A stretch of 64,000 nucleotides of DNA, taken from the NCBI RefSeq assembly GCF_000802235.1, contig NZ_JTDL01000098.1:62001-126000 (forward strand), given 5' to 3'. Positions 22,937 through 38,040 of the stretch are shown here, piece after piece. Origin of the DNA: Sinomonas humi (GTDB lineage Bacteria; Actinomycetota; Actinomycetes; Actinomycetales; Micrococcaceae). Every line of letters starts with the position of its first letter. The first letter of the stretch is position 1. Position numbers and translations under genes: made by a program. The notes under the pieces are model-generated. The model did no database searches, was not told where the DNA came from, and saw nothing but the letters and a program-made list of their open reading frames with translations.

Positions 22937-23398
22937 TTGCACGCCACCTACAGCCGCCCGGGGATGCTCTTCCTCGGCCCAGCGGCAGTCGGCCTTGGTC
23001 TCGCAGCGCATCTCATTTCAGGCGGAGCAGTCCCACCGCTCTCCGTCGTCGTTGCCCTCACCGCCGTGGCGAGCCTGCTGGCGACGGCGGCGGTCCACGC
23101 GAGGCGGCCCCCGGCGTGGGCCCTGGGCCTAGGCAGTGGTGTCCTGCAGCAAGCGCTGCATCTCCTCTTCACTGCGTTGGCGGGGCCGGACGGCCCGCTC
23201 TTCCCGTCGTCCGGCCACGCCCATCATGGATCCCCCACCCCGCTTCCCGTCCCGGTCCAGGAAGGAACTTCGGCGGCGATGGATCCCCACCTGCTGGTGG
23301 TCGCTCATGTTGCGGCGGCGCTACTCACTGCACTCTTGGCTATCAGGGCCACCCGCACCCGCCCTACGCCGCCCCCTGCTCTGCCACGACCACGGTGA
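22937..23398 (+). CDS. Small membrane protein of unknown function
   Basis: About 153 residues from a TTG at 22937 (or 144 from the ATG at 22964). Four hydrophobic stretches are seen: MLFLGPAAVGLGLAAHLI, PLSVVVALTAVASLLATAA, LGLGSGVLQQALHLLFTAL, and HLLVVAHVAAALLTALLAI. A hydrophilic loop between the third and fourth holds SSGHAHHG, a small His cluster. I recall similar short actinobacterial membrane proteins near copper or DUF4383-type genes, but assign no function. Its 3' end overlaps the converging DeoR gene by 35 bp. Confidence 0.5.
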   Translation: MHATYSRPGMLFLGPAAVGLGLAAHLISGGAVPPLSVVVALTAVASLLATAAVHARRPPAWALGLGSGVLQQALHLLFTALAGPDGPLFPSSGHAHHGSPTPLPVPVQEGTSAAMDPHLLVVAHVAAALLTALLAIRATRTRPTPPPALPRPR

Positions 23399-24137
23399 CG
23401 TAGGGGCTGGCCCGGAAAGGCTCGAGCTGCCGCTCTGAGGCCGAGGCGTCGGTGATGAGGGTCCAGGGCCGCTCGATCGGCGTCCACCAGTGCGCCGAGC
23501 TGGCGGCGAGCTTGCTGGAATCGGCGAGGACGTAGAGCTCCGCGGCCGCCCGGATCATCGCACGCTTGAGGGACGCCTGCTGGTCAGTCTGTTCGCTGAG
23601 CCCGCGCTCGGCACTCACTCCGTCCGCGCCGAGGAACGCGGCATCGGCCGTCAGGGTGGAGAGGGCCGCCTCGGCCAGGGGCCCCACTGTTCCGGAACTG
23701 ATGTGCCGGAGGCGCCCTCCGAGGATCACGAGCTCCACGTCTTCGGCGTGTTCGAGGGTCCTCGCGGTGGTCATTCCGTTGGTGATCACGGTGATGTCCG
23801 AGCGCGAGCAGAGGCAGCGGGCGAGCATCCCCACGGTAGTGCCAGCATCGAGGATGTTGACCGAGCCGGGGGCCACGAGGGAGGCCGCGTGGCGCCCGAT
23901 GGCCTGTTTCGCTTCGCCGGCGACCATCTCCCGTTCCCTCAGGCTCTGTTCCCTCCCGCTCCCTGCGGGAGCGGCTCCTCCGTAGGTACGGAGGATCCGC
24001 CCGCTCGCGACGAGCCGGTCCAGGTCGCGCCGGATAGTGGAGGGTGAGACCGCGAATTCGTCCGCGAGTTCCTCGACAGTCGCGGGGCGGGCCTCAAGGG
24101 TCTCGGCGATCCGAGAGCGCCGTCCACTGGCATTCAT
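23364..24137 (-). CDS. DeoR/GlpR family regulator of the D-threonate-type operon
   Basis: A 257-residue DeoR protein: helix-turn-helix TVEELADEFAVSPSTIRRDLDRL at the N-terminus, then the phosphosugar-sensing domain with NILDAGTTVGMLARCL and FLGADGVSAERGLSEQTDQQ. It is the last gene of an operon with a DUF1537 kinase and a PdxA-like dehydrogenase (8-bp gap). DeoR regulators commonly sense phosphorylated intermediates, so the tetronate 4-phosphate is a plausible ligand. Confidence 0.85.
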   Translation of the reverse strand: MNASGRRSRIAETLEARPATVEELADEFAVSPSTIRRDLDRLVASGRILRTYGGAAPAGSGREQSLREREMVAGEAKQAIGRHAASLVAPGSVNILDAGTTVGMLARCLCSRSDITVITNGMTTARTLEHAEDVELVILGGRLRHISSGTVGPLAEAALSTLTADAAFLGADGVSAERGLSEQTDQQASLKRAMIRAAAELYVLADSSKLAASSAHWWTPIERPWTLITDASASERQLEPFRASPYVTVVVAEQGAA

Positions 24138-24145
24138 CGGCTGGA

Positions 24146-25156
24146 CTACCCTTCTGTGGACGCCGCCCGCTCTCCGGCGAGGTCGACGGCGGCCTTGAGC
24201 GCCTCGAGCATCGACGCATGGTCCGCGAGATTCTTCCCGGCGATGTCGAAGGCGGTGCCGTGGTCCACAGACGTGCGCACGACGGGGAGGCCGACCGTGA
24301 TGTTCACCCCGTTCTCCAGGCCGAGAACCTTCACCGGGCCGTGGCCCTGATCGTGGTACATCGCCACAACGAGGTCGTAGTCGCCGCGGCCCGCCTTGAA
24401 GAAGAGTGTGTCGGCGGGAAGCGGTCCTTGGGCGTCGATCCCCTCTGCCTGGGCCTGAGCGATGCCCGGGGCGATCTTCTCTGCCTCCTCACCGTGGCCG
24501 AAGAGCCCGTTCTCCCCGGCGTGGGGGTTGATCGCGGCGACGGCGATGCGGGGGTTTTCGATGCCGGCCCGCACGAGCAGGTCGTAGCCCCGGCGGATCG
24601 TGCGGTAGACGAGCGGCCCGTCGATCTTGGCGATAGCATCCACGAGCCCGATGTGCGTGGTGACGTGGATGACGCGCATGCGGGGCGCCGTCAGCATCAT
24701 CGAAACCTCGGGGGTTCCGGTGAGCTCGGCCAGGAGCTCGGTGTGGCCGGGATAGTTGTGGCCAGCCGCGTGGAGTGCGGCCTTGTTCAGGGGGGCCGTG
24801 CAGATCGCATCGATTTCGCCTGCGAGCGCGAGCTCGACGGCCTTCTCGACGTAGAGGTACGCGGCGTGGCCGGCCTCCGGCGAAAGCTGCCCCCACGGGA
24901 GGTCGGGGTCGAGGCCGGGGATGTCGAGGACGTCGATCGTCGAGGGCTCGAACCCGGCGTCAGCGACGGTGGCGATGGCGCGCGCGGAGAGCGTGCTCCC
25001 GACGATCTCCATCGCCTTGCGGATCCTGTCGAGACTGCCGATGACGAGCACACGGGCGTGCTCGTGGACGCCTGGGTCTGCCATCGCCTTGGCGATGACC
25101 TCGGGGCCGACGCCGGCGGGGTCGCCCATGGTGACTGCGACGATGGGAAGGCTCAT
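24146..25156 (-). CDS. pdxA2: PdxA2-like tetronate 4-phosphate dehydrogenase
   Basis: A 336-residue metal- and NAD-dependent dehydrogenase/decarboxylase of the PdxA family: AVTMGDPAGVGPEVIAKAM, CTAPLNKAALHAAGHNYPGHTE (metal-binding His), TTHIGLVDAIAKI, NPHAGENGLFG, AMYHDQGHGPVKVLG. Biosynthetic PdxA acts on 4-phosphohydroxy-threonine in vitamin B6 synthesis; the paralogue PdxA2 oxidises D-threonate or D-erythronate 4-phosphate to dihydroxyacetone phosphate and CO2. Overlap with a DUF1537 kinase gene (ATGA) and no other B6 genes point to the catabolic form. Confidence 0.85.
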   Translation of the reverse strand: MSLPIVAVTMGDPAGVGPEVIAKAMADPGVHEHARVLVIGSLDRIRKAMEIVGSTLSARAIATVADAGFEPSTIDVLDIPGLDPDLPWGQLSPEAGHAAYLYVEKAVELALAGEIDAICTAPLNKAALHAAGHNYPGHTELLAELTGTPEVSMMLTAPRMRVIHVTTHIGLVDAIAKIDGPLVYRTIRRGYDLLVRAGIENPRIAVAAINPHAGENGLFGHGEEAEKIAPGIAQAQAEGIDAQGPLPADTLFFKAGRGDYDLVVAMYHDQGHGPVKVLGLENGVNITVGLPVVRTSVDHGTAFDIAGKNLADHASMLEALKAAVDLAGERAASTEG

Positions 25157-26388
25157 GAGTTCTGCTCCTTGTTGGCGTGGGTGGGAACGGCTGTTTGCGG
25201 GTGCGAGAGGCGCCCGACGACGGCGGAGAGCGTCTGGGCGTCTCCAAAACTTCCCGACTTGAGGACGAAGGGGATGGGGTTGCCAGGCAGGTCGGCGAGG
25301 ACCACCCCGGGAAGGAGTTCCGCGCGAAGCCAGAAATGCGGGGCACCGATGGCTTCAAGCACGGCGGCCGCGGTCTCGCCTCCCGAGACGACGAGGGCAG
25401 AGGCGGTGTCCGTCGCCGCTGCGGCGGTGGTTGCGAGGGCGGCGCAGACGCGTGCGGCCTGGGACTTGTCGAGGGGATCGGCGAGGGAGGGGGTGAGGAC
25501 CGCTCCGCCGACGGCGAGGGCCTGCTGCAGGGCGGCGCGCGCGTCCCGCCCGTCGTCGTCCGCCGCCAGCGGCGGAAGCTCGACATGCTGGACGCCGTTC
25601 GCGATGAGGTTCTGCAGCTGGCCTCGGCCAATCTGCGAATAGCTGCCGATCACGACGAGCGGCCCGGCGGCGTCTGAACGACCGCCAGTACGCTGCAGCG
25701 GCAGCCCCTCGGCCGCCTTGGACGCCGCGGAGTCGCGCGAGGTGGTGCCAATGTGCGCCGCGACTCCTCCGGTTCCGACGAGGATGCCTTCTTGCCCGAG
25801 CGTTTCTGCGGCTGACGCGATCGCAGCAAGGTCTTCTTCCTCGGTTGCGTCGACCACGGCGGCCTGGATTCCGGCCTCCGCAATCGCTCGGAAGAGTCCG
25901 GCCAAGGCATTCCCATCCTGCCAATCGCCCCGGCTGATGAGGCGAGTGGTGAGGCCTGCAGCGCCAAGCGCCCTGACGACGTCGCCCTCCACGGCGAGAG
26001 GCGCACCTTCCACGTGAACTACGCCTCCGACGGTTGTCCGTCCGGTGCGCGGGAAGGCGGGGGCGACGACGGCCAGAGTCGGCTTGGCCGACGAGACAGC
26101 CTCGAGGACCCCCGCGACTTCGGCCCCGACGTTGCCCCGCATGAGCGAGTCGATCTTCTTGAAGACGCGGGCCCCCGAGAGCATGGCCTGCTCGGCCACT
26201 GCCCGAGCGCGGTCCTGCGCCTTGCCGCCAGGGAGGTAACGACTCTCGGTAGAGACGGCGAGAACATCCGCCTCAGGCCACGCGGCCTCGGGGTTGGTGA
26301 TCACAGCTGTGCGTGAATGCGCGGCGAACGCGACGGCGGAATCTGCAGCGCCGGTCAGATCGTCGGCAACGATGACGAGATTGGGCAT
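25153..26388 (-). CDS. dtnK: Four-carbon acid sugar kinase (DUF1537), DtnK type
   Basis: A 411-residue kinase of the four-carbon acid sugar kinase family. The N-terminal domain has the conserved VIVADDLTGAADSAVAFA and FKKIDSLMRGNVGAEVAGVL; the C-terminal ATP-binding domain holds VSGGETAAAVLEAIGAPHF and GNPIPFVLKSGSFGDAQTL. It would phosphorylate D-threonate (or D-erythronate) at O4 for the adjacent PdxA2-like enzyme. It leads the three-gene operon. The ATG has no clear ribosome site. A second family member is at 30154. Confidence 0.85.
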   Translation of the reverse strand: MPNLVIVADDLTGAADSAVAFAAHSRTAVITNPEAAWPEADVLAVSTESRYLPGGKAQDRARAVAEQAMLSGARVFKKIDSLMRGNVGAEVAGVLEAVSSAKPTLAVVAPAFPRTGRTTVGGVVHVEGAPLAVEGDVVRALGAAGLTTRLISRGDWQDGNALAGLFRAIAEAGIQAAVVDATEEEDLAAIASAAETLGQEGILVGTGGVAAHIGTTSRDSAASKAAEGLPLQRTGGRSDAAGPLVVIGSYSQIGRGQLQNLIANGVQHVELPPLAADDDGRDARAALQQALAVGGAVLTPSLADPLDKSQAARVCAALATTAAAATDTASALVVSGGETAAAVLEAIGAPHFWLRAELLPGVVLADLPGNPIPFVLKSGSFGDAQTLSAVVGRLSHPQTAVPTHANKEQNS

Positions 26389-26642: not shown

Positions 26643-27962
26643 CTAGCCCTCGGCGAGGGTGGCCGGCGCCGGAACCTCGGGAGAGTCTCCGTAGTGGATG
26701 CCAATCGAGGACAGGGCCATGATGACCCCGGCGACCGCGAAGACGACGAAGACGACGGCGAAGCTCGAGGTCGCCTGCACGATGAGGCCGATGAGGATCG
26801 GCATCAGGATGCCCGCGACGTTGCCCGAGAAGTTCATCGCGCCGCTGATCTTCCCGACGTCGCCCGGGTGCGCGATCCGAGCGGGGACTGCCCAGTAGAG
26901 GCCGCCCCAGCGCAGGAAGAAGTTGGCCGCGCTGATCAGGATCAGTGCCGCGATGGGAGACCCGACGACGTTGACCAGGAGGATGGCGACGGCGACGCCG
27001 AACCCGGCGATCCCGAGCATCCAGCGCAGGACCCGGTTGGGCTTGGCGCCTCGGCGGATCAGGCGGTCGGCGAGCTGGCCGGCGAAGATCTCGCCGACGA
27101 AGCCGACGCCGAAGATCACGAAGGTCCACGCGCCGATCAGGGCGGTCGAGACGTGCTGCTGCTGGCTGACATAGCTCGGGGCCCAGGTGAGCAGGCCGTA
27201 GACGACGGCGTCGTAGCCGAAGAACGCGGCGAGCAGCAGCCAGGTGCTGCGCGAGCGCAGGTAGTCAGCTGCCGTCCGCTTCTCGGCGGGGGCCACCTCG
27301 GTGTCGATCGCGGCGAGGTATTCGCGTTCCTTGTCGCGGATGAGAGGGTGTGCGGCGGGATTGTCCCGCATGAACAGCCACGCAATGACCCCGATGAGCA
27401 CGGTGATGAGGCCGACGACCCCGAAGGCCAGCCGCCAGGTGCCCAGACCGATGATCAGTCCGGTGATCAGGAGGCCTCCGAGAGCGGTGCCGAGGGGACC
27501 ACCACCGTCGACGAGGGTGCTGCCGCGGGCACGTTCACTGCGCCGGAGCCAGCGGGTGAGGGAAGTGTTGGCACCGTTCTGGACCGGGCCCTCGAAGACG
27601 CCGAGGAGCATACGCATGCCGAACAGCGCGGTGACGCCGGTCGCGAGGCCGGTGAGGGCTTCGGCGATGCCCCACCCGATGAGGCTGCCCGTGACGATCT
27701 TGCGGGGCTTGATCTTGTCCACGAGCCAGCCGCCCGGAAGCTGCATGAGCGTATAGGTCCAGCCGAAGGCGCTCAGGAGCAGGCCTTCGACGGCCGGGGT
27801 GAGGTGGAACTCCTTGCCGATGAGCGGCATCGCGATCGAGAGCGACGCCCTGTCGATGTAGTTGATAACCATGACGAGGACGAAGAACCCGAACATCCAC
27901 CACCGCAGCGACGGCAGAGTGAATCTGCGGGTCTTGGTTCCTCGTTGAGCCGTTTCTGTCAT
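26643..27962 (-). CDS. MFS transporter, anion:cation symporter (sugar acid) type
   Basis: A 439-residue carrier with about twelve membrane segments. VMVINYIDRASLSIAMPLIG after the first helix is the signature of the ACS family (hexuronate, glucarate, tartrate and phthalate carriers). ARGSTLVDGGGPLGTALGG and GKISGAMNFSGNVAG are also typical. The ATG at 27962 has AGGA; upstream codons lack homology. Its place in a tetronate island suggests uptake of threonate, erythronate or a related acid. It follows the DeoR gene by 187 bp that contain an inverted repeat, so it may have its own promoter. Confidence 0.85.
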   Translation of the reverse strand: MTETAQRGTKTRRFTLPSLRWWMFGFFVLVMVINYIDRASLSIAMPLIGKEFHLTPAVEGLLLSAFGWTYTLMQLPGGWLVDKIKPRKIVTGSLIGWGIAEALTGLATGVTALFGMRMLLGVFEGPVQNGANTSLTRWLRRSERARGSTLVDGGGPLGTALGGLLITGLIIGLGTWRLAFGVVGLITVLIGVIAWLFMRDNPAAHPLIRDKEREYLAAIDTEVAPAEKRTAADYLRSRSTWLLLAAFFGYDAVVYGLLTWAPSYVSQQQHVSTALIGAWTFVIFGVGFVGEIFAGQLADRLIRRGAKPNRVLRWMLGIAGFGVAVAILLVNVVGSPIAALILISAANFFLRWGGLYWAVPARIAHPGDVGKISGAMNFSGNVAGILMPILIGLIVQATSSFAVVFVVFAVAGVIMALSSIGIHYGDSPEVPAPATLAEG

Positions 27963-27989
27963 GACGTCCTGTTCTGGTTGTGCAGGTGT

Positions 27990-28017
27990 CTCCTGCAGAT
28001 CCTGATGTCTGCAGGAG
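27990..28017. promoter_or_regulatory. Inverted repeat upstream of the MFS gene
   Basis: CTCCTGCAGA (27990-27999) and TCTGCAGGAG (28008-28017) are perfect 10-bp arms around eight bases, 28 bp before the MFS ATG. It could be a terminator of the upstream DeoR gene or an operator for MFS expression. Confidence 0.5.
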
Positions 28018-28149
28018 AGCCCTGCAGGGCCTTCGGACTCCCGCCTTTGGCTGGACGCGAGCAGGGCCGGGCGGCGCGTTCGGCGCCGTCGGTCCAAGGG
28101 CATGGGTGCTGCGGTGGTGCTGTCCCTGATCGAGCCGCGAGGGGTGGCT

Positions 28150-28995
28150 TTACGCCCCGTGCGGCTGGGAGGTCACGGCCTCCCCCGGCCCTTCAGAGGA
28201 CGAGGGGAGGTCGAGGGCGACCCCGAGGTCCCGGATGCCGTCCGCTGCCGCATGCGGCAGCCGGGCATCGGTGATGATGCGGTCAAAGCGCTCGAGCGGA
28301 AAGACGTCGTACATCCCGAAGGTCCCGAACTTGGTGCTCGTGGCCATGAGGACGGCGGTGGAGGCGGATTCGACGGCCGCTGTCTTGACAGGGACCTTCG
28401 ACTCGGTAGGCGTGGTGACCCCACGGCGAAGGTCCCAGGAGCTCGCGCTGATGAACGCGATGTCCGTATTGATGCGGCGGAGGATTTCGCCTGCCAGACT
28501 GCCGACGGCGGAACGGTTCGAGTGTTCGAGCCGGCCCCCCGTGTGGATGGTCTCCACGTGGGGGGCGTCGGTCAGCTGCTCGACGATCGCGAAGTCGTTG
28601 GTCACGACCGTCATGCCGTGCCGCTGCCGGATTGCGGGAACGAGGGCACCGGTGGTGGTGCCTGCGTCCAGGTAGAGCACCATGCCGTCGGAGAGGAGCC
28701 CGGCGGCGGCCCCTGCGATGGCGGCTTTCTCGTCCCGCTCCGATGCCGTCTTGTCCCCGAACGCCGGCTCGAGGCGCATGCCGCTCGCCAAACGCACGCC
28801 TCCAGGCACCGATACCGCGCGTCCTTCCCGCTCGAGCACGGCGATGTCGCGCCGAACGGTCATGTGGGACACGCAGAGGAGCTCGGTGAGCTGGGCGACG
28901 CTGAGAACGTGGTCGCGTCGCAGGGCCCGCATGAGCTTCTCTCGCCGCTGATCGGGGATGAGGATCCCCTCTTCGGGCATCGGCGCTTCGGTCAT
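28150..28995 (-). CDS. DeoR/GlpR family regulator of the tetronate oxidation genes
   Basis: A 281-residue DeoR protein. Helix-turn-helix: LSVAQLTELLCVSHMTVRRDIAVLE; effector domain: LYLDAGTTTGALVPAIRQ, VETIHTGGRLEHSNRSAVGSL. It sits between a dehydrogenase gene (19 bp upstream) and the MFS gene, both on the same strand. It probably controls the divergent operons that meet at 29984-30153. Confidence 0.85.
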   Translation of the reverse strand: MTEAPMPEEGILIPDQRREKLMRALRRDHVLSVAQLTELLCVSHMTVRRDIAVLEREGRAVSVPGGVRLASGMRLEPAFGDKTASERDEKAAIAGAAAGLLSDGMVLYLDAGTTTGALVPAIRQRHGMTVVTNDFAIVEQLTDAPHVETIHTGGRLEHSNRSAVGSLAGEILRRINTDIAFISASSWDLRRGVTTPTESKVPVKTAAVESASTAVLMATSTKFGTFGMYDVFPLERFDRIITDARLPHAAADGIRDLGVALDLPSSSEGPGEAVTSQPHGA

Positions 28996-29014: not shown

Positions 29015-29983
29015 CTAGAGTGCCGGGGCCGGCCCGAGCTCGCTGCGCAGGGCGCTCAGAGCGGCGTAGGCCTTGTCCCGATATGCAACCAGATCCGGGG
29101 CCTCGTCGGCCGGGATGTCGAGGAATCCGCCCCCGGACTTGAGGCCCAAACGCCCCTTCTCGACCATCGAGTGGAGCATCTGGGGCGACGTGAAACGCTC
29201 GCCATATTCCGCCTCGAGGCTCGCGTACGACATGTCGTAGACATCCAGCCCCGCCATGTCGGCGATCGCGAACGGGCCGAAGAGCGCCAGGCGGAAGCCG
29301 AAGGCGTTGCTGACCACGGTATCGATCTGTGCCGGGGTCGCGAGCCCCTCTTCCACCATCCGCACCGCCTCTTTGAAGAGGGCGAACTGGAGACGGTTGG
29401 CGACGAAGCCCGGCGAATCTGCGACCTGCCCCGGCTGCTTGCCGGCCTCCCGAATGAGGGCTTCCGAGGATGAGACTGCCCACTCGACGGTTCCCGGGTG
29501 AGGGATGAGCTCGACGCCGGGGATGAACGGGGCCGGGTTCATCCAGTGGACTCCCAGGAAGCGCTCGGGCCCGACGACGGACTGCGCCAGTTCGGCGATC
29601 GGGATCGCCGAGGTGTTGGAGCCGATGACGGCGTCGGCAGGAGCCGCGGCGGAGATCCGGGAGAGGGCCTCGGCCTTGACGTCGCGGCGCTCGAAAACAG
29701 CTTCCGTCACGTAGTCCGCGCCCTCGACGGCAGCCTCGACGCTCTCCGCCGAGCTGAGGCGCGCGGCGATCTCCTCTGCAGCCCCCGCGCGGAACAGGCC
29801 GTCTTCTTCAAAACGGCTTGCCTGCGTCACGAGGCGTTCGCGCGCCTGAGCGGCACGCTCACCATCCACGTCGCCGAGCACGACGTCGCGGCCCGCCAGG
29901 GCGAGCACCTGAGCGATGCCCCCTCCCATGTAGCCGGAGCCGACGACGGCGACCCGCTGGATGGCCTTCTCTGATGCGTTCAT
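29015..29983 (-). CDS. 3-hydroxyacyl-CoA dehydrogenase-family protein in a tetronate cluster
   Basis: A 322-residue NAD-dependent dehydrogenase. The Rossmann motif is VAVVGSGYMGGGIAQVLALAG; SNTSAIPIAELAQ, GVHWMNPAPFIPGVELIPH (catalytic His) and DSPGFVANRLQFALFKEAVRMVEEG are family hallmarks; the C-terminal KGRLGLKSGGGFLD is the tail motif. The fold includes 3-hydroxybutyryl-CoA dehydrogenase but also L-gulonate 3-dehydrogenase and carnitine dehydrogenase, which do not need CoA. No beta-oxidation gene is near; the neighbours are tetronate genes. I therefore infer a tetronate (sugar-acid) dehydrogenase in the slot usually held by the LtnD/DenD family. Confidence 0.7.
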   Translation of the reverse strand: MNASEKAIQRVAVVGSGYMGGGIAQVLALAGRDVVLGDVDGERAAQARERLVTQASRFEEDGLFRAGAAEEIAARLSSAESVEAAVEGADYVTEAVFERRDVKAEALSRISAAAPADAVIGSNTSAIPIAELAQSVVGPERFLGVHWMNPAPFIPGVELIPHPGTVEWAVSSSEALIREAGKQPGQVADSPGFVANRLQFALFKEAVRMVEEGLATPAQIDTVVSNAFGFRLALFGPFAIADMAGLDVYDMSYASLEAEYGERFTSPQMLHSMVEKGRLGLKSGGGFLDIPADEAPDLVAYRDKAYAALSALRSELGPAPAL

Positions 29984-30052: not shown

Positions 30053-30091
30053 TTTCACACAAGCGTCAAGTTTCGTTCCACAGATTCACAC
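30053..30091. promoter_or_regulatory. Repeated TTCACAC-like boxes in a divergent promoter
   Basis: TTCACAC occurs at 30054-30060 and again at 30085-30091, exactly 31 bp apart, with the related TTCCACA at 30076-30082. They lie in the 170-bp gap between the dehydrogenase and kinase operons and may be DeoR half-sites. Tentative. Confidence 0.35.
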
Positions 30092-30153
30092 GTGACAACA
30101 TGGGGTGAACCATCTCCGACCAGATGGACCGTCCCGAACAAAGGAGCCAGCCG

Positions 30154-31446
30154 ATGAGATGGGGCTGCATTGCCGACGACGTCACCGGCGCCACTGACCT
30201 TGCCACGGCCTTCGTCAGCCGTGGCCTCACGGCCGCGGTGCATTTCGGCGTCCCAAGCCCCGGAGACATCGCCGAGTTCGAGGATTTGGAGGTGCTCGTC
30301 GTCGCGCTCAAGTCACGGACCGCGCCTCCCGCGGATGCCGTGAGGGAGTCTCTCGCCGCGCTCGATGCGCTCGCGGAGGCTGGCGCGGAGCGCTTCTATG
30401 TGAAGTACTGTTCCACTTTCGACTCCACACCATCTGGGAACATCGGCCCAGTCATCGACGCCGTGGTGGGCCGGCTCGGGGAGCCAGGCACCGTCGTCGT
30501 GCCCAGCTTCCCGGACACCGGGAGGACCGTGTACCAGGGCCGCCTGTTCGTTGGAAGCGACCCGCTCGACGAGAGCCCGATGCGCGACCACCCGCTCACT
30601 CCGATGCGCGATTCGAGCCTCATGCGCCTTCTGGAGCCGCAGACGGAGAGCGATGTCTCGCTCGTCCCGCTCCAGACCGTGCATCAAGGAGCCGAGGCCG
30701 TGCGCGAGGAGTTGCTCCGCCTCATCGGCTCAGACCGAGAGCGGCCCATGCTCGCCGTCGTGGACGCCCTCGAGAGGGAGGATCTCGCCGTCATCATGGA
30801 AGCCGCAGCGGGCCTGAAAGTCGTCACGGGCGGCTCGGGCCTGGCTCTTGGCATCCCTGCCGGGGACGAGGCCGAGGCCCGACGCATACCCCTCACGCCG
30901 GGCCGCAGGGCCGTCCTGTGCGGAAGCGCCTCGGCACGGACGCGAGAGCAGATCGCGTCCGGCAAGGCCCTCCTCCCCTTCCGGAAGCTCGACCTCGATG
31001 CGCTCCGCAGCGACGTCGTGGCCGAGGCGGGGCGGATCATCGACTGGGCGCGGGACCTCTGGTCGAAGGATTCCTCAGCAGTTCCTCTCGTTTTCTCTGC
31101 GGAGAGCATCGAGGACCTGGCCGAGGACAGGGACAACGTGAGCTCGCTCGTCGAACAGGCCCTGGCCGCGATCGCCGCAGGCATGATCGGCGAGGGCGTC
31201 CGCGAACTCGTCGTCGCCGGGGGCGAGAGCTCAGGGCGGGTTGTGCAGGAACTCGGCGTCAAGGCCCTGCGGATAGGGCCCGCCATCAGCCCGGGCGTCG
31301 CGTGGGCCAACGCCACCGCCGCCGATGGCACTAGCCTCAGTCTCGCCCTCAAGTCCGGGAACTTCGGCGAGCGCGATATGTTCACCACAGCATGGTCGGC
31401 CCTTGAGGGCGCAGCACACCTCGGGGAAGGAACCGAAGAGAAGTGA
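30154..31446 (+). CDS. otnK: Four-carbon acid sugar kinase (DUF1537), OtnK type
   Basis: A 430-residue kinase: WGCIADDVTGATDLATAFVS at the start, FYVKYCSTFDSTPSGNIGPV, and a C-terminal VVAGGESSGRVVQELGVKAL and LKSGNFGERDMF. The YCSTFDST form is the one seen in 3-oxo-tetronate kinases, whereas the paralogue at 25153 has FKKIDSLMRG, so the two likely act at different steps. It should phosphorylate 3-oxo-tetronate at O4. The ATG at 30154 has AAGGAG. It overlaps the aldolase gene by 4 bp (GTGA). Confidence 0.85.
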   Translation: MRWGCIADDVTGATDLATAFVSRGLTAAVHFGVPSPGDIAEFEDLEVLVVALKSRTAPPADAVRESLAALDALAEAGAERFYVKYCSTFDSTPSGNIGPVIDAVVGRLGEPGTVVVPSFPDTGRTVYQGRLFVGSDPLDESPMRDHPLTPMRDSSLMRLLEPQTESDVSLVPLQTVHQGAEAVREELLRLIGSDRERPMLAVVDALEREDLAVIMEAAAGLKVVTGGSGLALGIPAGDEAEARRIPLTPGRRAVLCGSASARTREQIASGKALLPFRKLDLDALRSDVVAEAGRIIDWARDLWSKDSSAVPLVFSAESIEDLAEDRDNVSSLVEQALAAIAAGMIGEGVRELVVAGGESSGRVVQELGVKALRIGPAISPGVAWANATAADGTSLSLALKSGNFGERDMFTTAWSALEGAAHLGEGTEEK

Positions 31447-32132
31447 CGAGCACAGAAGCTACGGCAGGGCCTCGGGAAGAGCTCGTGCTCGCCGGCAGGA
31501 GCCTGACCGCGAACGGCCTCAGCCGCGGATCTGCCGGCAACCTCAGCGTGCGTGAGGGCGACCATCTCCTCATGTCGCCCACCGGATCGGACCTCGGCAG
31601 CCTCGTGGCAGCCTCCCTCTCGGTCCTCGACTTCGAGGGGAATCTGCTGGAAGGACCGCGTCCGTCCAAAGAATTCCCCTTCCACCGCGCCTTCTACCGC
31701 CGGGACCGCAGCACGAACGCCGTCGTGCACGTCCATTCCCCCGCAGCCATGGCCGTATCCTGCCTTGAGCCGTGGACGGAGTGGAGCGCCATTCCGCCGC
31801 TGACCCCCTATTTCGTCATGCGGGTCGGACAGACTCCGCTGGTCCCCTACGCCGACCCCGGAGATCCGAGCCAAGCCGACTGGATCGAGGCGATCCCCTT
31901 TCCCCTGCACGCCGTCCTCCTGCAGAACCACGGAGCCATCACGGTCGGGCGCGACCTCGCGGAAGCCGTGGACACCGCCGTCGAACTCGAACAGGTCTGC
32001 GACACGCTCCTGCGCACCGCGGGCCTCCCCAAGCGGCTGCTCAGCCAGGAGACCGCGGTCCGCCTCGCCGGGAAGTACGGGCGGCACTGGACGCTCGGCC
32101 AACCAGCCGCGGTTCCTCCCGCCCACAGCTGA
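31443..32132 (+). CDS. otnC: Class II aldolase-like 3-oxo-tetronate 4-phosphate decarboxylase
   Basis: A 229-residue zinc protein of the class II aldolase/adducin family: GRSLTANGLSRGSAGNLSVR, the Gly-Asn loop, HVHSPAAMAVSCLEPW (two zinc His), and VLLQNHGAITVGRDLAEAVD (third His). With OtnK upstream and OtnI downstream, it fits OtnC, which decarboxylates 3-oxo-tetronate 4-phosphate to dihydroxyacetone phosphate. A fuculose-phosphate-type aldolase has the same fold; context decides. GTG start inside the otnK stop. Confidence 0.85.
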   Translation: MTSTEATAGPREELVLAGRSLTANGLSRGSAGNLSVREGDHLLMSPTGSDLGSLVAASLSVLDFEGNLLEGPRPSKEFPFHRAFYRRDRSTNAVVHVHSPAAMAVSCLEPWTEWSAIPPLTPYFVMRVGQTPLVPYADPGDPSQADWIEAIPFPLHAVLLQNHGAITVGRDLAEAVDTAVELEQVCDTLLRTAGLPKRLLSQETAVRLAGKYGRHWTLGQPAAVPPAHS

Positions 32133-32172: not shown

Positions 32173-32976
32173 GTGGCTGTCAAAAGCGATGGAATGGGCC
32201 TGGCCCTGAATACCTCAAGCGTCCTCGCCCATCTGCCCTTGCTGCAGCAGCCCGCGGCGGCCGCGGCGGCGGGGTTCGACGAGATCGAGCTGTGGTGGCC
32301 CTATCCCGGCTCCGAACCCAGCACGCAAGAGGCAGACGAGCTCGTTGCAGCCGTCGAGGAAGCCGGAGTGCGGGTGGGACTGCTCAACTTCCATGGAGGG
32401 GACCTCGCTTCAGGCGAGCGCGGCTTCGCCTGCCAACCGGGCCGCGAGCGGGAGTTCTCCGCCGCCATGGAAGGCGCCCTCCGTCTCGGCAAGCGGCTCG
32501 GGGTAGGGGCCTTCAACCCCATGTATGGGCTCGCGGTCGCGGAGGCGAGCCCCGACGAGCAGGAGCGCGCCGCCGTCGCGAACCTCGCGCTCGCGGCGAA
32601 AAAGGCGGCTGAGATCGGTGCACAAATTGCGCTCGAACCCCTCAGCGGTATTCCCGACTACCCCCTCACCACGGCAGCAGCGACCATGCGGATCGTGGAG
32701 AGAGTGCGCGAAGCTGGGAGCCCGGCCATCGGGATGCTCGCCGACTTCTACCATCTGAGCCACAGCGACGAGGATCTGCTCGACGTCATCCGTCGGTACG
32801 GCCAGGACTTCGTCCGCATCCAGATCGCCGATGCGCCCGGACGCGGACATCCCGGCAGCGGCGGCCTGCCCCTCTGCTCCTGGCTCGCCGCCTCCCGGGA
32901 AGCAGGCTACGAAGGGACGGTCGGCCTCGAGTACTTCCCCGACGACCCTGCGCTCGCCTTCGAATGGCTCGCCTAG
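32173..32976 (+). CDS. otnI: 2-oxo-tetronate isomerase (hydroxypyruvate isomerase-like)
   Basis: A 267-residue TIM-barrel protein of the xylose-isomerase-like/hydroxypyruvate isomerase family. ALNTSSVLAHLPLLQQPAAAA, GFDEIELWWPYPG, LLNFHGGDLASGERGFA, IALEPLSGIPDYPL (metal Glu), GMLADFYHLSHSDED (metal Asp/His) and TVGLEYFPDDP are all in place. The 2-oxo to 3-oxo-tetronate step of the threonate pathway suits it. GTG start with AAAGGAAG. Third gene of the kinase-decarboxylase-isomerase operon. Confidence 0.83.
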   Translation: MAVKSDGMGLALNTSSVLAHLPLLQQPAAAAAAGFDEIELWWPYPGSEPSTQEADELVAAVEEAGVRVGLLNFHGGDLASGERGFACQPGREREFSAAMEGALRLGKRLGVGAFNPMYGLAVAEASPDEQERAAVANLALAAKKAAEIGAQIALEPLSGIPDYPLTTAAATMRIVERVREAGSPAIGMLADFYHLSHSDEDLLDVIRRYGQDFVRIQIADAPGRGHPGSGGLPLCSWLAASREAGYEGTVGLEYFPDDPALAFEWLA

Positions 32977-33054: not shown

Positions 33055-33768
33055 TCACCCAGACCTGCTGACGGTGAGCTCGAAGTCGTACCTGTCCGCA
33101 CGATAGAAGCTTCTGGCATATTCGGCGATTCGTCCCTTCTCGTCGAACCCTCTTCGGACGACGAGGAGGGCAGCAGAGCCGTGGGGCACATTCAGCAGGT
33201 CGGCGATGCGGCCTTGGAGAATCTGGGCCGAGATCTTCTGCTCAGCTCGCTCGATGCGCATGTTGTAGCTGGAGGCGAAGATGCCGTAGAGGGGCCGCTC
33301 AAGGTCCTGGTGCAGGAGGCCGGGGTACAGGTGCGCGGGAAGCCGGATGTCCTCGAAGCACATGGGGAAACCGTCGGCGAGCCTCAGCCGCTCGAGATGG
33401 AGCACGGCACTGCCGGGGGCGAGCTCGAGCCGTTCGGTCGCCTCGGCGTCCGCTGGGCCTTGATCGACGTGCAACAGGCGGGTTCCGGGTCGCAGCCCCC
33501 TTGCCTGCATGTCCTCGGAGAACGACGTCAGGCGGCTGTCCTTGGAGATCCGTTGGGCGGCGACGAAGGTGCCGCGGCCCCGTACTGAGTAGATCCGCCC
33601 TTCGTCGGCGAGGCCCTTCAGGGCCTGCCGGACGGTGGAACGGCTGACCTCATAGCGTTCGGCCAGCTCGCGTTCCTGGGGCAGAGGGGCGTCCGGGGCG
33701 AGCCCCGACATGTGCTGAAGGATTTCCTCCCTCACCCATTCGTGCTTGACGCGAGTCGTCGTCACCAT
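33055..33768 (-). CDS. GntR/HutC family regulator, NagR/DasR-like
   Basis: A 237-residue regulator: winged helix with PLPQERELAERYEVSRSTVRQALKGLADEGRIYSVRGRGTFVA, then a UTRA effector domain (LHLERLRLADGFPMCFEDIRLP, AEYARSFYRADRYDFEL). UTRA regulators of this kind include YvoA/NagR and DasR, which sense glucosamine- or GlcNAc-6-phosphate. It is divergent from an amino-sugar import and degradation operon, and two GGT-N4-ACC palindromes like DasR sites lie in the gap, so it should repress that operon. Confidence 0.85.
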   Translation of the reverse strand: MVTTTRVKHEWVREEILQHMSGLAPDAPLPQERELAERYEVSRSTVRQALKGLADEGRIYSVRGRGTFVAAQRISKDSRLTSFSEDMQARGLRPGTRLLHVDQGPADAEATERLELAPGSAVLHLERLRLADGFPMCFEDIRLPAHLYPGLLHQDLERPLYGIFASSYNMRIERAEQKISAQILQGRIADLLNVPHGSAALLVVRRGFDEKGRIAEYARSFYRADRYDFELTVSRSG

Positions 33769-33845
33769 CGCCCCTTCCTCTCTGCCGGCGCCTCCGCGCC
33801 CTAGCGCACCGGCGTGGGCTCCGCGAACCTATCTTCCCGGATCCA

Positions 33846-33919
33846 TTGACCACGTGCGAAGTACACTGCTACGGTAACACCACAGGTCCGGACCTAGGAC
33901 CTTTTGGTACGAACCAAAA
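33846..33919 (+). promoter_or_regulatory. Promoter with two DasR-like operator sites
   Basis: TTGACC (33846-33851) and TACGGT (33870-33875) with an 18-bp spacer make a plausible promoter. Downstream are AGGTCCGGACCT (33884-33895, perfect palindrome) and TTTTGGTACGAACCAAAA (33902-33919, 7-bp arms). Both have the GGT-N4-ACC geometry of the DasR/NagR operator, whose core is TGGT-CTAG-ACCA. Their centres are 21 bp apart, two helical turns. The second site ends 24 bp before the lipoprotein ATG. Confidence 0.65.
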
Positions 33920-33943
33920 ATGCCTCTCGATGAGGAGAAGACC

Positions 33944-35272
33944 ATGATTCGAAAGTCCCTCCCCCGGCACGCCGCACTCGCCTCGATCGCCGTCGCAGCA
34001 CTGGGCATGTCACTTGCCGGATGCGGTGTTTCCGGCTCCACCTCCGGCAGCGCCAACGGCACGACCACCGTGAAGATGATCATGGAGCCGGGGCCGGAGG
34101 CGGACTCGATGTCTAAGCTGGTGAACTCCTTCAACTCTGGGCAGGGCTCGAAGGACAAGATCCATGTCGAAATCGATCAGCTCAGCCGCACGGACACCTT
34201 CGCGAAGGAAGCAGCGTTGATGTCCACTAACTCCTCGGACTACGACATCTACCGCACCACCAGCTATCTGATCGCTCAGCATGCTCCTTATCTGGAACCG
34301 CTGACCCTCAATGGAGACAACTACTTCAAGGTCGCCCTCGACTCGCTCCAAGTGGACGGCAAGCAGTACGGGATCCCATTGGATCCCAGCGTGAATCTCG
34401 TCTACTACCGCACTGACCTGATCGACCAGATGCTCAAGGACGCCCCGACGTTCGAGAAGATCAGCCAGGAGGTCCTCGGCAAGACGCTCCAGCCCAAGAG
34501 CCCGGACCAGTGGAACTGGGACGATTACATCGCGTCCGCGGCCTACTTCACCAAGAAGTACAACCCCAACTCCCCCACCGCCTATGGCACGGAACTGCAG
34601 GCGAAGAACCTGCTCTACAACGCCATGGTCTGGGACGACGTCCTCTGGGGCTCTGGCGGGAACTGGCTGAACTCCTCCGGCCAGCCGGACCTAACCAGCC
34701 CTGCAGCGCAGAATGCGGTCAACATCTACCGCACCATCTACACCAAAGGTCTCACTTCGCCTGACTCAGATCAGGCGGAGTTCCCGGAGACCGAGGCGGC
34801 GCTCGGCAGCGGCAACGCAGCATTCGCGATCCAGTGGAACGCGGGCTACGACCAACTCAACGACCCGTCCAAGTCCCCCAAGACCGCTGGGAAGATCGGC
34901 ATCGCCCCAGTCCCCGGCAACAAGTCCCACACGCACGTCCTCTCTCTGGGAATCAATAAGGACAGCAAGCACAAGGCCCAGGCAGAGGAGTTCATCAAGT
35001 ACCTCGACGACGAGGCGACCATGGCCGCCTACGTGGGGGACGGCGGCATCGCATCAATGCCGAAGGCCCTGGCCAGCAAGAGTGACCCGAACACCGCCGC
35101 ACTGAACAAGGTCCTCTCGGATGGCAGCTTCTCCGAGCCCGCGCTGCCGAAGGCATTCGACATCTATACCGCGCTCGCCAACGACCTCTCCGGAGCCTGG
35201 GTCGGGCAGGGCGACGTCACCTCGGCCTTGCAGAAGGCCAACGCCGACGTGGCGAAGCTGGCGGGGAAGTAA
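33944..35272 (+). CDS. Amino-sugar ABC importer substrate-binding lipoprotein
   Basis: A 442-residue extracellular solute-binding protein of the CUT1 (sugar) type. Signal peptide and lipobox SLAGC, with the lipidated Cys at residue 27. A Ser/Gly linker leads into the binding domain (TVKMIMEPGPEADSMSKLVN, YGIPLDPSVNLVYYRTDL, AAFAIQWNAGYDQLND-type sequence). ATG after GAGGAG. It is followed by two permease genes, a kinase, nanE and nagB, so the ligand is probably an N-acetylated amino sugar such as ManNAc or GlcNAc. No ATPase gene in the operon. Confidence 0.87.
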   Translation: MIRKSLPRHAALASIAVAALGMSLAGCGVSGSTSGSANGTTTVKMIMEPGPEADSMSKLVNSFNSGQGSKDKIHVEIDQLSRTDTFAKEAALMSTNSSDYDIYRTTSYLIAQHAPYLEPLTLNGDNYFKVALDSLQVDGKQYGIPLDPSVNLVYYRTDLIDQMLKDAPTFEKISQEVLGKTLQPKSPDQWNWDDYIASAAYFTKKYNPNSPTAYGTELQAKNLLYNAMVWDDVLWGSGGNWLNSSGQPDLTSPAAQNAVNIYRTIYTKGLTSPDSDQAEFPETEAALGSGNAAFAIQWNAGYDQLNDPSKSPKTAGKIGIAPVPGNKSHTHVLSLGINKDSKHKAQAEEFIKYLDDEATMAAYVGDGGIASMPKALASKSDPNTAALNKVLSDGSFSEPALPKAFDIYTALANDLSGAWVGQGDVTSALQKANADVAKLAGK

Positions 35273-35279
35273 CCGAACT

Positions 35280-36209
35280 ATGACGTCTCCCTCGTCTGTG
35301 GCGACCCGCTCCGCGGATGTGGCAGCGAAGGGGAGCCGCCGCCGGCGCCCCGGCCTCGGCCGGGGCCCGGTGCGGTGGGTCCTGGCTGCGCCCCTGCTGG
35401 TCTTCCTCGCGTTGCTGGTGGTGTTCCCGATCATCTACGGGATCCAGTCCTCACTTACCTCCAGGACCCTGCTGGACCCAACGCCCGCGTGGGTCGGGCT
35501 CGGGAACTACGCCACTGTCCTGACCGACACCGGATTCTGGCACTCGGTGCTGTTCACCCTCGTGTACACGGTGGTCGTAACCGCTGTCGAGCTAGTCCTC
35601 GGATTCGGGCTGGCGCTACTGTTCGACAAGGAGTTCCCGGGCAAGAAGTTTCTCCTCAGCTCGGTTATCCTCCCGATCATGATCGCCCCGGCTCTGATGG
35701 GCATCATGTTCAGGCTCCTCCTCAACGCGAACATCGGTCTCGTCCCGGGCTTCCTGCACGCCGTAGGCATCAACACCCCGCTGCTGAGCGCCGGAGTCGT
35801 CATCCCCATGCTCATGGCGCTGGACGTAGTGCAGTGGACTCCGTTCACCTTCCTGCTCTTCCATGCGGCCCTCCAGTCGGTCCCAGGCGAACTTCACGAA
35901 GCCGCCCAGCTCGATCGGGCCAGCTACCCCCGGTTCGTCAGCTCGATCTTGCTTCCGCTCATGACGCCGACGATCTTCATCGCCGGATTCCTGCGTGCCA
36001 TCGACGCGTTCAGGACCTTCGACACCATCAACGTCCTCACCTCAGGAGGCCCAGGGGACAACACCACAACGCTGAGCATCTATATCTACAAGATTCTCTC
36101 GGCAGGCAACTTCGGCACGGCGTCGGCCGCAGCACTGCTCGTGGCGCTGATCATGCTGCCGTTGGTACCTATCGTCGTCCGCCGCATTACCCGAGGAGCA
36201 GTCTCATGA
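35280..36209 (+). CDS. Sugar ABC importer permease (MalF type)
   Basis: A 309-residue inner-membrane permease with six membrane segments after a basic N-terminus. The ATPase-docking EAA loop reads EAAQLDRASYPRFVSSILLP. The first periplasmic region SSLTSRTLLDPTPAWVGLGNY is typical of MalF-like CUT1 permeases. ATG 7 bp after the lipoprotein stop; its stop overlaps the next permease gene (ATGA). Confidence 0.88.
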   Translation: MTSPSSVATRSADVAAKGSRRRRPGLGRGPVRWVLAAPLLVFLALLVVFPIIYGIQSSLTSRTLLDPTPAWVGLGNYATVLTDTGFWHSVLFTLVYTVVVTAVELVLGFGLALLFDKEFPGKKFLLSSVILPIMIAPALMGIMFRLLLNANIGLVPGFLHAVGINTPLLSAGVVIPMLMALDVVQWTPFTFLLFHAALQSVPGELHEAAQLDRASYPRFVSSILLPLMTPTIFIAGFLRAIDAFRTFDTINVLTSGGPGDNTTTLSIYIYKILSAGNFGTASAAALLVALIMLPLVPIVVRRITRGAVS

Positions 36210-37051
36210 GCCAAGCACCTGCCTTGCCGAGGCAGCGCAAGCCGGCACCCTGGTGGCGGACGGCTGTGATTGGACTGATCGCCCTGCTGATCAACCTGCC
36301 GCTCATCAACGCTCTCATCACGTCTTTCAAGACCGACGCCGCGATCGGCCTCTCCCCGTTCTCTTTCAGTGGGGGCCTGACGCTGGACCACTTCAGCGCG
36401 ATTCTCGGCGGCACCAAGTACAACTTCATCGGGTTCTTGGCGAACTCCGCCCAGATCTCCCTCGGATCAGTCCTGCTCATCATGGTCGTCGCTGTGCCTG
36501 CTAGCTACGCGATCGTTCGTATGGGGTTCGGAGGCAGCTGGCTCCTGCAGATCATCACCAGCCTGCGACTGGTGCCTGCAATGTTCTTCGCCATCCCCTT
36601 CTTCCTGATCTTCTCCTCGCTTGGGGTCTACGACACGATCGTGGGTCTGGTCCTAGCGAACGCCTTCATCAACCTTCCTCTGGCCCTGCTCATCATTTGC
36701 GGCACGCTCAGGGAACTCCCCGTCGAGATCGAGGAAGCTTCTAAAATCGACGGCGCTGGCCCCTTCCGGAGCCTGTTCTCGATCGTGCTCCCGCTCCTCG
36801 CGCCGGGACTGGTCGCCGTAGGCATCCTGGTCTTCGTCTTCTCTTGGTCCGATTACCTCTTCGCGGTCATCCTTTCGGCCTCCAACGCAGTACCCGTAAC
36901 TGTTGGCGCGGCCTTCTTCGTCACCAGCGCAGGAATCGCCTGGGGCAATCTCGCCGCTGTGACCGTCGTGTCGGTGATCATCCCGCTCTGCTTCGCCTTC
37001 TTCGCGCAGCGCTACCTCGTCCGCGGCCTTTCCGCGGGCGCGATCAAGTAG
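36206..37051 (+). CDS. Sugar ABC importer permease (MalG type)
   Basis: A 281-residue partner permease, six membrane segments, EAA loop EEASKIDGAGPFRSLFSIVLP. The N-terminal PWWRTAVIGLIALLINLPLI and the C-terminal AQRYLVRGLSAGAIK ending are CUT1/MalG typical. The operon has no ATP-binding protein, so a shared ATPase of MsiK type encoded elsewhere must energise it, as is common in actinobacteria. A kinase gene starts 5 bp later. Confidence 0.88.
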   Translation: MSQAPALPRQRKPAPWWRTAVIGLIALLINLPLINALITSFKTDAAIGLSPFSFSGGLTLDHFSAILGGTKYNFIGFLANSAQISLGSVLLIMVVAVPASYAIVRMGFGGSWLLQIITSLRLVPAMFFAIPFFLIFSSLGVYDTIVGLVLANAFINLPLALLIICGTLRELPVEIEEASKIDGAGPFRSLFSIVLPLLAPGLVAVGILVFVFSWSDYLFAVILSASNAVPVTVGAAFFVTSAGIAWGNLAAVTVVSVIIPLCFAFFAQRYLVRGLSAGAIK

Positions 37052-37056
37052 ACGCC

Positions 37057-38040
37057 ATGACACGGGACAGAGACCCGGACCGCGCGACGGAAGGCGCCAG
37101 CGCGTCATCGAGGATCCTCACATTCGACCTCGGGCAGGGAGGACTGCGAGCGCGCCTGCGCTCGGGTTCCGACCTCGAATGCGAGTTCACGGGCCCCGGC
37201 TACCTGCCCGGGCAGCCGATCGCTCAGTTCCTGCTAGATCTCGCAGAGCGCGCAGCCCAAGCATCCGGAAGCCGGCGATTCGATACGCTCGCGGGCGGCC
37301 TGACTGGGGTTCACGGCCATCCCCCTGACCCCCATGACTTTCTGCCACCCCTCAAGGAACGATTCGGGACCCGGCGGCTCGTCCTCGCCGACGACGCCCT
37401 CACCTCCTACCTCGGTGCGCGAGGCAACCATGAAGGCGTCATCGCCGCTGTCGGCACGGGCCTTGTCGCCCTCGGTTATGCCCCGAGAAAGCGAGCCGCC
37501 CGTGTCGACGGCGCCGGGGCGATGGTCGGGGACGAGGGCTCCGGCTGGTGGGTCGGACGCCAAGGGCTCATCGCGGCCATCAGCGCCTCCGACGGACGCC
37601 GCCCCAGCTCGAAAGCCCTTCTCGCCGCAGTTGAAGAGCTTTACGGCCCAGTCGGAGCCCTGCCGACCCTCATTGCCGCCGCGCCCTCTCCTATAGCCCT
37701 CGTTGCCAGTTTCGCCCCCGCGGTAGCCCAAGCAGCACGTGAAGGCGACGACGTCGCCCGGCGAATTTGGGCGCGGGCCGGAGAGCACATCGCCGCAGCT
37801 ATCTCCGCCGCCGCGCGCGGAGCGGGCTTGGGCCCGCGCTGCGACTACACGCTGCTCGGAGGAATCGCAGCGGCAATCGACCTCCTCGAACCAACACTTA
37901 GCCGACGCCTGCAAGACGACCTCCCCGGCGCCACGCGCACAGCCCCCGTTGGCACATCCCTCGACGGCGCCGAGAGGCTCGTCGCCCTTGACACCCTCGA
38001 ACCTCTGTCTCCTCTCGCTACCGAGACAACACAGGCCTAA
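37057..38040 (+). CDS. BadF/BadG-type amino-sugar kinase
   Basis: A 327-residue ASKHA-fold kinase of the BadF/BadG/BcrA/NAGK group. Phosphate-1 region: RILTFDLGQGGLRARL; adenosine/phosphate loops: VIAAVGTGLVALGY and MVGDEGSGWWVGRQGLI; C-terminal TLLGGIAAAIDLLEP. This group includes GlcNAc kinase. Being followed by nanE, it would phosphorylate ManNAc or GlcNAc taken up by the ABC importer. No ribosome site as strong as its neighbours; ATG 5 bp after the permease stop. Sugar specificity cannot be read. Confidence 0.78.
   Translation: MTRDRDPDRATEGASASSRILTFDLGQGGLRARLRSGSDLECEFTGPGYLPGQPIAQFLLDLAERAAQASGSRRFDTLAGGLTGVHGHPPDPHDFLPPLKERFGTRRLVLADDALTSYLGARGNHEGVIAAVGTGLVALGYAPRKRAARVDGAGAMVGDEGSGWWVGRQGLIAAISASDGRRPSSKALLAAVEELYGPVGALPTLIAAAPSPIALVASFAPAVAQAAREGDDVARRIWARAGEHIAAAISAAARGAGLGPRCDYTLLGGIAAAIDLLEPTLSRRLQDDLPGATRTAPVGTSLDGAERLVALDTLEPLSPLATETTQA

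Follow-up and report, generated by a model that had tools for sequence, protein, structure and literature searches.

The 64-kb stretch of Sinomonas humi DNA that we analyzed (64,000 nucleotides; hereafter, the window) contains a divergent cluster of genes resembling those of known tetronate pathways (Table 1). The target of our analysis is the gene for a dehydrogenase with a 3-hydroxyacyl-CoA dehydrogenase (3HCDH) fold. An earlier note on this DNA had described this gene as divergent from the tetronate operon, and indeed otnK starts 140 bp away and is transcribed in the opposite direction. The gene for a YgbI-like regulator of the DeoR family lies 19 bp behind the target gene and is followed by that for an MFS transporter; the next three genes, past a gap of 254 bp, encode another DUF1537 kinase, a PdxA2-like dehydrogenase, and another DeoR-family regulator. 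The plus strand carries otnK, otnC, and an OtnI-like gene in close succession, the last of them starting 40 bp after otnC.

The genes of the window differed in how well they matched the families for which they are named. Of the products expected for a 3-oxo-tetronate cluster, OtnK scored above its family cut-off, and the OtnC-like and OtnI-like proteins scored below theirs. The OtnI-like protein reached 141 bits against a cut-off of 325 for OtnI and 209 bits against 353 for hydroxypyruvate isomerase. The PdxA2-like protein reached 353.6 bits against 583 for PRK03371 (D-threonate 4-phosphate dehydrogenase).

Table 1. Genes and putative regulatory sequence of the divergent cluster, with positions in the window.
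Feature	Position	Strand	Remarks
Second DeoR-family regulator	23364-24137	minus	-
PdxA2-like 4-phosphotetronate dehydrogenase	24146-25156	minus	TIGR00557, above cut-off
Second DUF1537 kinase, D-threonate-kinase-like	25153-26388	minus	Below cut-off
MFS transporter, D-galactonate-transporter type	26643-28103	minus	Below cut-off
DeoR-family regulator, YgbI-like	28150-28995	minus	234.8 bits (cut-off 400), below cut-off; probably reads the operator
3HCDH-fold dehydrogenase (target), 322 aa	29015-29983	minus	ATG start; proposed NAD-dependent tetronate 3-dehydrogenase
Putative promoter/operator word, TGTGAA..TTGAC-N5-TGTGAA	30054-30090	minus	Divergent promoter region between target gene and otnK
OtnK, 3-oxo-tetronate kinase	30124-31446	plus	NF043035, 443 bits (cut-off 350)
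OtnC-like protein	31443-32132	plus	NF043034, 204 bits (cut-off 250), below cut-off; best match is the OtnC family
OtnI/hydroxypyruvate-isomerase-like TIM barrel	32173-32976	plus	30% identical to E. coli YgbM

The target protein is a member of the 3-hydroxyacyl-CoA dehydrogenase superfamily, as had been claimed from the letters of the window. The open reading frame matched positions 29015-29983 exactly, and its product contained the Pfam domains 3HCDH_N (PF02737, 161.9 bits) and 3HCDH (PF00725, 90.3 bits), both above the gathering cut-off, together with the catalytic Ser, His, Glu, and Asn of the superfamily. Ser125, His146, Glu158, and Asn196 were invariant. With an offset of 12, Ser125, Glu158, and Asn196 correspond to Ser137, Glu170, and Asn208, which were mutated in solved human enzymes according to the titles of the structures, and His146 corresponds to the catalytic histidine.

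The target protein did not fall into any curated family. None of the NCBIfam models reached its cut-off for the target or for three relatives that were scanned. The best score with the curated models specific for 3-hydroxyacyl-CoA dehydrogenases was 223.6 bits (cut-off 427), and the score with the family of 5-formyl-3-hydroxy-2-methylpyridine 4-carboxylate 5-dehydrogenase (FHMPC dehydrogenase) was 217 bits (cut-off 500). We ruled out that the target is LtnD by another name: there was no match to the LtnD model NF043037 at E ≤ 0.001, and NAD_binding_11 was absent. NAD_binding_2 was marginal (21.2 bits against 21), and the DenD model NF043036 did not match the target protein.

The substrate half of the target protein most resembled that of enzymes acting on free acids. 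We compared residues 150-250 with PDB chains. The best match was L-gulonate 3-dehydrogenase (3ado, 73.0 bits), the sugar-acid precedent that the earlier note had named; FHMPC dehydrogenase, an enzyme of vitamin B6 breakdown, was practically tied (72.7 bits), and CoA enzymes reached at most 53.8 bits. The segment GFRLALFGP aligned without gaps with the free-acid enzymes 3ado and 4om8 (FHMPC dehydrogenase), and residues 233-235 were missing in the CoA enzymes 3mog and 1zcj and in two enzymes from the same genome that were aligned. A shorter C-domain segment, without these three residues, would be a hallmark of the CoA enzymes; the target has them. Arg231 was present in 58 of 58 sequences of the clade and is shared with 3ado and 3f3s, and 4om8 has Lys at this place. 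Among the CoA-type enzymes, 3mog and the two from the same genome have Pro here and 1zcj has Lys, so that Arg231 is not a clean marker. Judging from the alignment, and with the exception of 1zcj in mind, the free carboxylate may be bound by Arg231.

When full-length sequences were compared, 4om8 scored highest among PDB entries (164 bits), and lambda-crystallin reached 124 bits. The structure predicted for the target protein (pLDDT 91.3) had the fold of the family. The 50 matches listed in a comparison of folds were mostly 3-hydroxyacyl- or 3-hydroxybutyryl-CoA dehydrogenases (Z of 29-34); lambda-crystallin was not among the matches listed, which excludes nothing. Because the closest folds listed are CoA enzymes and the free-acid type is not set apart from them, the predicted fold does not decide the substrate.

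Relatives of the target gene were repeatedly found next to otnK and otnC. We scanned named genomes with the target protein family alone, and not by way of otnK, and kept the best 80 of 405 loci. Thirty-two of these (L106-L138, all but L137) were of the type found in the window, and 10 of the 32 had both otnK and otnC in the flanks examined, some of which end early at contig ends. These ten relatives were 62-73% identical to the target protein and came from Streptomyces sulfonofaciens (L106), Prauserella (L107), an Actinomycetales metagenome-assembled genome (MAG; L108), Pseudonocardia (L109 and L113), Pseudomonas kuykendallii (L110), Nakamurella (L116), Compostimonas (L119), Arthrobacter (L133), and Actinomycetales JB111 (L136). 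Seven of the ten loci also had a relative of the YgbI-like regulator (66-73% identity) and an eighth had one at 61%; none was found at L116 or L136. PdxA2 and a DUF1537-like gene were present at L108, as in the window. The remaining window-type loci had a histidinol-dehydrogenase-type (HisD-type) gene and an SDR gene (15 of 32), were from Pseudomonas and had the same type of regulator with an MHS-type transporter (five), or were of neither kind (L111 and L125). Leaving aside the fifteen HisD-type loci and L125, we examined 16 relatives' genomes for OtnK and found it above the cut-off in 15.

The association with otnK is limited to the window-type subgroup; the wider clade is not linked to otnK. 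OtnK was present in 27 of 394 genomes in an even sample of the class, compared to the 10 of 32 window-type loci with otnK and otnC. Members of the clade were present in 15 of the 394 genomes, and the co-occurrence with otnK that might have been expected was not seen beyond the window, the one genome with both. Among 197 genomes of the family, there were 57 members of the clade, and otnK was beside the member in the window only. The earlier note had proposed checking co-occurrence with otnK, otnC, and otnI across genomes: the association with otnK and otnC held for the window-type subgroup, and it did not extend to otnI (see below) or to the wider clade. The otnK-linked proteins were not recovered as one clade in either tree that we built, the rebuilt tree leaving out the outgroup row own_L002 and the long rows L142 and L073.

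A sequence word is shared by the divergent promoter regions of the window and several of the linked loci. We derived the word from an alignment of six divergent promoters, those of L107 and L133 not among them. The core, TTGAC-N5-TGTGAA, occurred once in the genome of 4,416,081 bases, at 30054-30069 of the window, and the same pattern read backward, as a control, had no match in that genome. The core recurred at L107, L108, L109, L113, L119, and L133, each time in the stretch that separates otnK from the 3HCDH transcription unit, and was absent at L106, L110, L116, and L136 (4 of the 10 relatives). In the fetched loci (3.39 Mb, repeats counted), it was found nowhere besides these six relatives and the copies from the genome of the window. 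The word in the window overlies the -35-like sequence TTGACG, with TAGCGT 17 bases further. By analogy with ygbI of E. coli, the adjoining YgbI-like DeoR regulator is likely the natural reader of this word.

We found no other candidate for the dehydrogenase in the cluster. A search of the whole genome for the LtnD family gave ten matches at E ≤ 0.001, none above the cut-off (350 bits) and none on the contig of the window. The best (258.5 bits, with NAD_binding_2 and NAD_binding_11) belongs to another cluster, located on contig C88, alongside a paralogue that is 59% identical to the target protein. DenD had no match in the genome at E ≤ 1e-30. The earlier statement that LtnD and DenD are missing from the cluster was thus borne out, although DenD had been wrongly assigned to the 3-hydroxyisobutyrate dehydrogenase family: the one DenD tested is an NAD-dependent epimerase-family protein. 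We also looked for an ltnD or denD homologue regulated together with the cluster, and none was found by sequence; because the core of the promoter word is present in a single copy in the genome, the LtnD-like gene on C88 is without it. Since DenD is unmatched and the matches to the LtnD family are below the cut-off and on other contigs, the proposal that the target fills the dehydrogenase slot of the tetronate pathway stands, and it is supported by the linkage to otnK and otnC (ten genomes), the promoter word (six), and the free-acid-like substrate half.

Based on these observations, we believe, with moderate confidence, that the target protein is an NAD-dependent tetronate 3-dehydrogenase that makes 3-oxo-tetronate for OtnK. 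A free tetronate, most likely L-threonate or L-erythronate, would be oxidized at the C3 hydroxyl to 3-oxo-tetronate, which would be phosphorylated by OtnK and then decarboxylated by OtnC to give dihydroxyacetone phosphate (DHAP). LtnD, and the isomerase OtnI that converts the 2-oxo to the 3-oxo compound, would be dispensable for this substrate, and the OtnI-like protein of the window would either be a leftover or act on a 2-oxo compound that enters separately. Transcription in both directions would be under the control of the YgbI-like repressor, acting at the promoter region that the two units share, and the second kinase (below its family cut-off) together with PdxA2 would handle D-threonate by a kinase-first route. 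The choice of substrate follows from stereochemistry: the beta-hydroxyl groups that are oxidized in L-3-hydroxyacyl-CoA, L-carnitine, and L-gulonate are all on the left side of the Fischer projection, which among the tetronates points to L-threonate and L-erythronate. We infer the activity, the position of oxidation, the stereochemistry, the cofactor, and the binding of the repressor alike.

The genes around related proteins raise the possibility of a different sugar acid. The target could be a free-acid 3-dehydrogenase for a C5 acid or for a branched or methylated tetronate, with a product that enters OtnK and OtnC or decarboxylates by itself. Sister proteins are encoded with HisD-type and SDR genes at the 15 window-type loci described above, and others are in clusters with dihydroxyacetone kinase (48 of the 57 loci of the family sample), a triose-phosphate-isomerase-like protein (48 of 57), and RpiB (33 of 57); in addition, OtnC of the window is below its family cut-off. 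We consider this unlikely, given that OtnK exceeds its cut-off both here and in nearly all of the relatives' genomes examined, and that the best NCBIfam match of the regulator, even if below the cut-off, is YgbI.

The position of oxidation was addressed by the distribution of OtnI. If the proposed tetronate 3-dehydrogenase instead oxidized C2, yielding a 2-oxo product, OtnI would be expected to stay with the enzyme. OtnI above the cut-off was beside otnK in 0 of 11 clusters with the genes for 3HCDH, OtnK, and OtnC (the ten relatives and the window). The window alone had an OtnI-like gene beside otnK; none was detected in the flanks of the other ten by tblastn at 1e-8. In comparison, OtnI was nearby in 9 of 9 clusters with LtnD and otnK (from E. 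coli, three actinobacteria, and five pseudomonads). The difference gives a Fisher p of 6e-6, a figure that is overstated because the clusters are not independent: the five from pseudomonads are closely related, and Nakamurella can be counted on either side. Searches of genome G600 for OtnI, LtnD, and DenD gave no match within the limits applied. Characterized members of the 3HCDH family mostly oxidize a beta-hydroxyl, an exception being the aldehyde-oxidizing FHMPC dehydrogenase. The absence of OtnI beside otnK in the relatives and this preference of the family are why we favor C3.

Several observations are nonetheless consistent with oxidation at C2, in which case the target would take the place of LtnD without being homologous to it, and its product would be isomerized by the OtnI-like protein or, in relatives, by an unlinked isomerase. 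The window keeps its OtnI-like gene directly behind otnC. Neither OtnI nor LtnD was above the cut-off anywhere in the genomes of the ten relatives, several of which are drafts or MAGs, but 8 of the 10 had unlinked OtnI-family matches below the cut-off (61-248 bits, several above the 141 bits of the window), so that an unlinked isomerase in the relatives is possible; LtnD-family matches below the cut-off were also present in 8 of the 10. At the Nakamurella locus, genes for 3HCDH, an LtnD-like protein (264 bits), DenD, OtnK, and OtnC are side by side, and OtnI had no match in that genome at E ≤ 1e-15; OtnI can thus be absent where oxidation at C2 is likely. With ten clusters lacking OtnI beside otnK and a family that mostly acts on the beta carbon, we regard oxidation at C2 as quite improbable.

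Clusters with 3HCDH are not alone in lacking OtnI. Eleven of 27 other otnK loci from the class (L214-L240) encoded a DRL-like oxidoreductase and had no OtnI in the flanks, and a twelfth match was weak. Because these clusters also lack OtnI, its absence is no proof that the 3HCDH protein oxidizes C3. There was no LtnD in the flanks of the DRL-like clusters either, and by sequence the DRL-like protein appears to be yet another enzyme type that fills the dehydrogenase slot of otnK-otnC clusters. The protein has about 460 amino acids and is encoded near otnK in actinobacteria (L219, L220, L221, L222, L223, L226, L228, L229, L230, L232, and L239; weak in L224); PF21135 (DRL catalytic domain) was tested on the L220 protein. 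Other arrangements were also found. Two DenD genes of S. sulfonofaciens, located on contigs other than that of the cluster, speak against the proposed role of the target. The five pseudomonads of the comparison with LtnD clusters have ltnD, otnK, and otnI together and the target-type dehydrogenase with its regulator elsewhere in the genome, as if the 3HCDH protein fed another tetronate into the same OtnK.

It is highly improbable that the target is an ordinary 3-hydroxyacyl-CoA dehydrogenase of beta-oxidation that neighbors otnK by chance, and we rejected this: the target shares the fold and catalytic tetrad of the CoA enzymes, which are its best fold matches among those listed, but neither it nor the three relatives scanned reached an NCBIfam cut-off, its substrate half is nearest to free-acid enzymes, and both the linkage to otnK and the promoter word recur.

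The proposed tetronate 3-dehydrogenase would make the pathway a variant of known ones. L-threonate from the breakdown of ascorbate is a carbon source for bacteria, and four-step and three-step routes based on LtnD have been described (PMC12540250), as have LtnD and DenD of Brucella (PMC10580937). The oxidative pathway for L-threonate and D-erythronate (LtnD or DenD, OtnI, OtnK, and OtnC; ygbJKLM in E. coli, and Brucella) shares OtnK, OtnC, and a YgbI-like DeoR regulator with the window, and presumably the end product, DHAP. It differs in the family of the dehydrogenase, in the relatives' lack of OtnI beside otnK, and in the carbon oxidized, which we propose to be C3 and not C2. The three-step bypass for L-threonate (LtnD, 2-OtnK, and 2-OtnC; attributed in PMC12540250 to Guo et al. 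2024) also dispenses with OtnI, but it keeps LtnD and oxidation at C2, and its decarboxylase is of the F_bP_aldolase type, compared to Aldolase_II here. What is new is a different dehydrogenase and probably a different carbon oxidized; the downstream pathway of OtnK and OtnC is known.

Two characterized enzymes are informative for the target. L-gulonate 3-dehydrogenase (CRYL1/lambda-crystallin; 3ado and 3f3s) shares with it the superfamily, the Arg, the three extra residues, a substrate half that is the closest by sequence in the PDB, and, as proposed for the target, a free sugar acid as substrate. It is an animal enzyme, whereas the target is linked to a kinase and a decarboxylase, and over the whole chain it matched the target less well than did FHMPC dehydrogenase and several CoA enzymes. 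FHMPC dehydrogenase is the best whole-length PDB match, acts on a free acid, and has the same three residues, but it has Lys in place of Arg231 and the target is far below the cut-off of its family. The action of L-gulonate 3-dehydrogenase is followed by decarboxylation to L-xylulose (PMC12435205).

With L-threonate as substrate, the reaction proposed for the target would be that of L-threonate 3-dehydrogenase (EC 1.1.1.129). To our knowledge, this is an activity of Pseudomonas without an assigned gene. The open-licence literature that we searched contained nothing relevant on EC 1.1.1.129 and no link between the 3HCDH family of the target and tetronates, and the words 'threonate 3-dehydrogenase' occur in three articles (PMC10476524, PMC4756382, PMC9810264). 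We tentatively suggest, as a possibility that goes well beyond the single locus, that the target is the missing gene for this enzyme and that its clade comprises bacterial free-aldonate 3-dehydrogenases. Their 3-oxo acids would feed OtnK and OtnC (C4 acids) or, after decarboxylation as in the conversion of L-gulonate to L-xylulose, kinases of the erythrulose or dihydroxyacetone type. If so, the gene-less activity would gain a candidate gene, there would be a variant of the tetronate pathway that saves one step over the LtnD-OtnI route, and soil actinobacteria and pseudomonads would have a clade in need of a new name, its nearest curated models being those for 3-hydroxyacyl-CoA dehydrogenases.

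Other gene clusters came to light during the analysis. The series of a HisD-family gene, an SDR gene, and 3HCDH was found at L114, L115, L120-L123, L126-L128, L130-L132, L134, L135, and L138; none of these loci had a kinase of the reference set, and the series is perhaps for the oxidation of a polyol to a 3-oxo acid. In Lacisediminihabitans (L111, 10001-11794), the gene after 3HCDH encodes an OtnI-like TIM barrel that is 38% identical to that of the window, and OtnK had no match in that genome at E ≤ 1e-50. The sister clade (L047, which is C88:38000-57000 of the genome of the window, together with most of the 57 loci of the family sample, L047-L104) has a TIM-barrel epimerase-like protein and an SDR in addition to its dihydroxyacetone-kinase-family, triose-phosphate-isomerase-like, and RpiB neighbors, and the cluster looks like a route from a 3-oxo acid to a ketose (erythrulose or dihydroxyacetone). 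In the window, past the OtnI-like gene (33055-38040), are a GntR/UTRA regulator on the opposite strand (by Pfam) and, beyond it in the list of open reading frames, an extracellular sugar-binding-like protein, two permease-like ORFs, and a kinase-like ORF, which are probably a separate cluster for sugar uptake.
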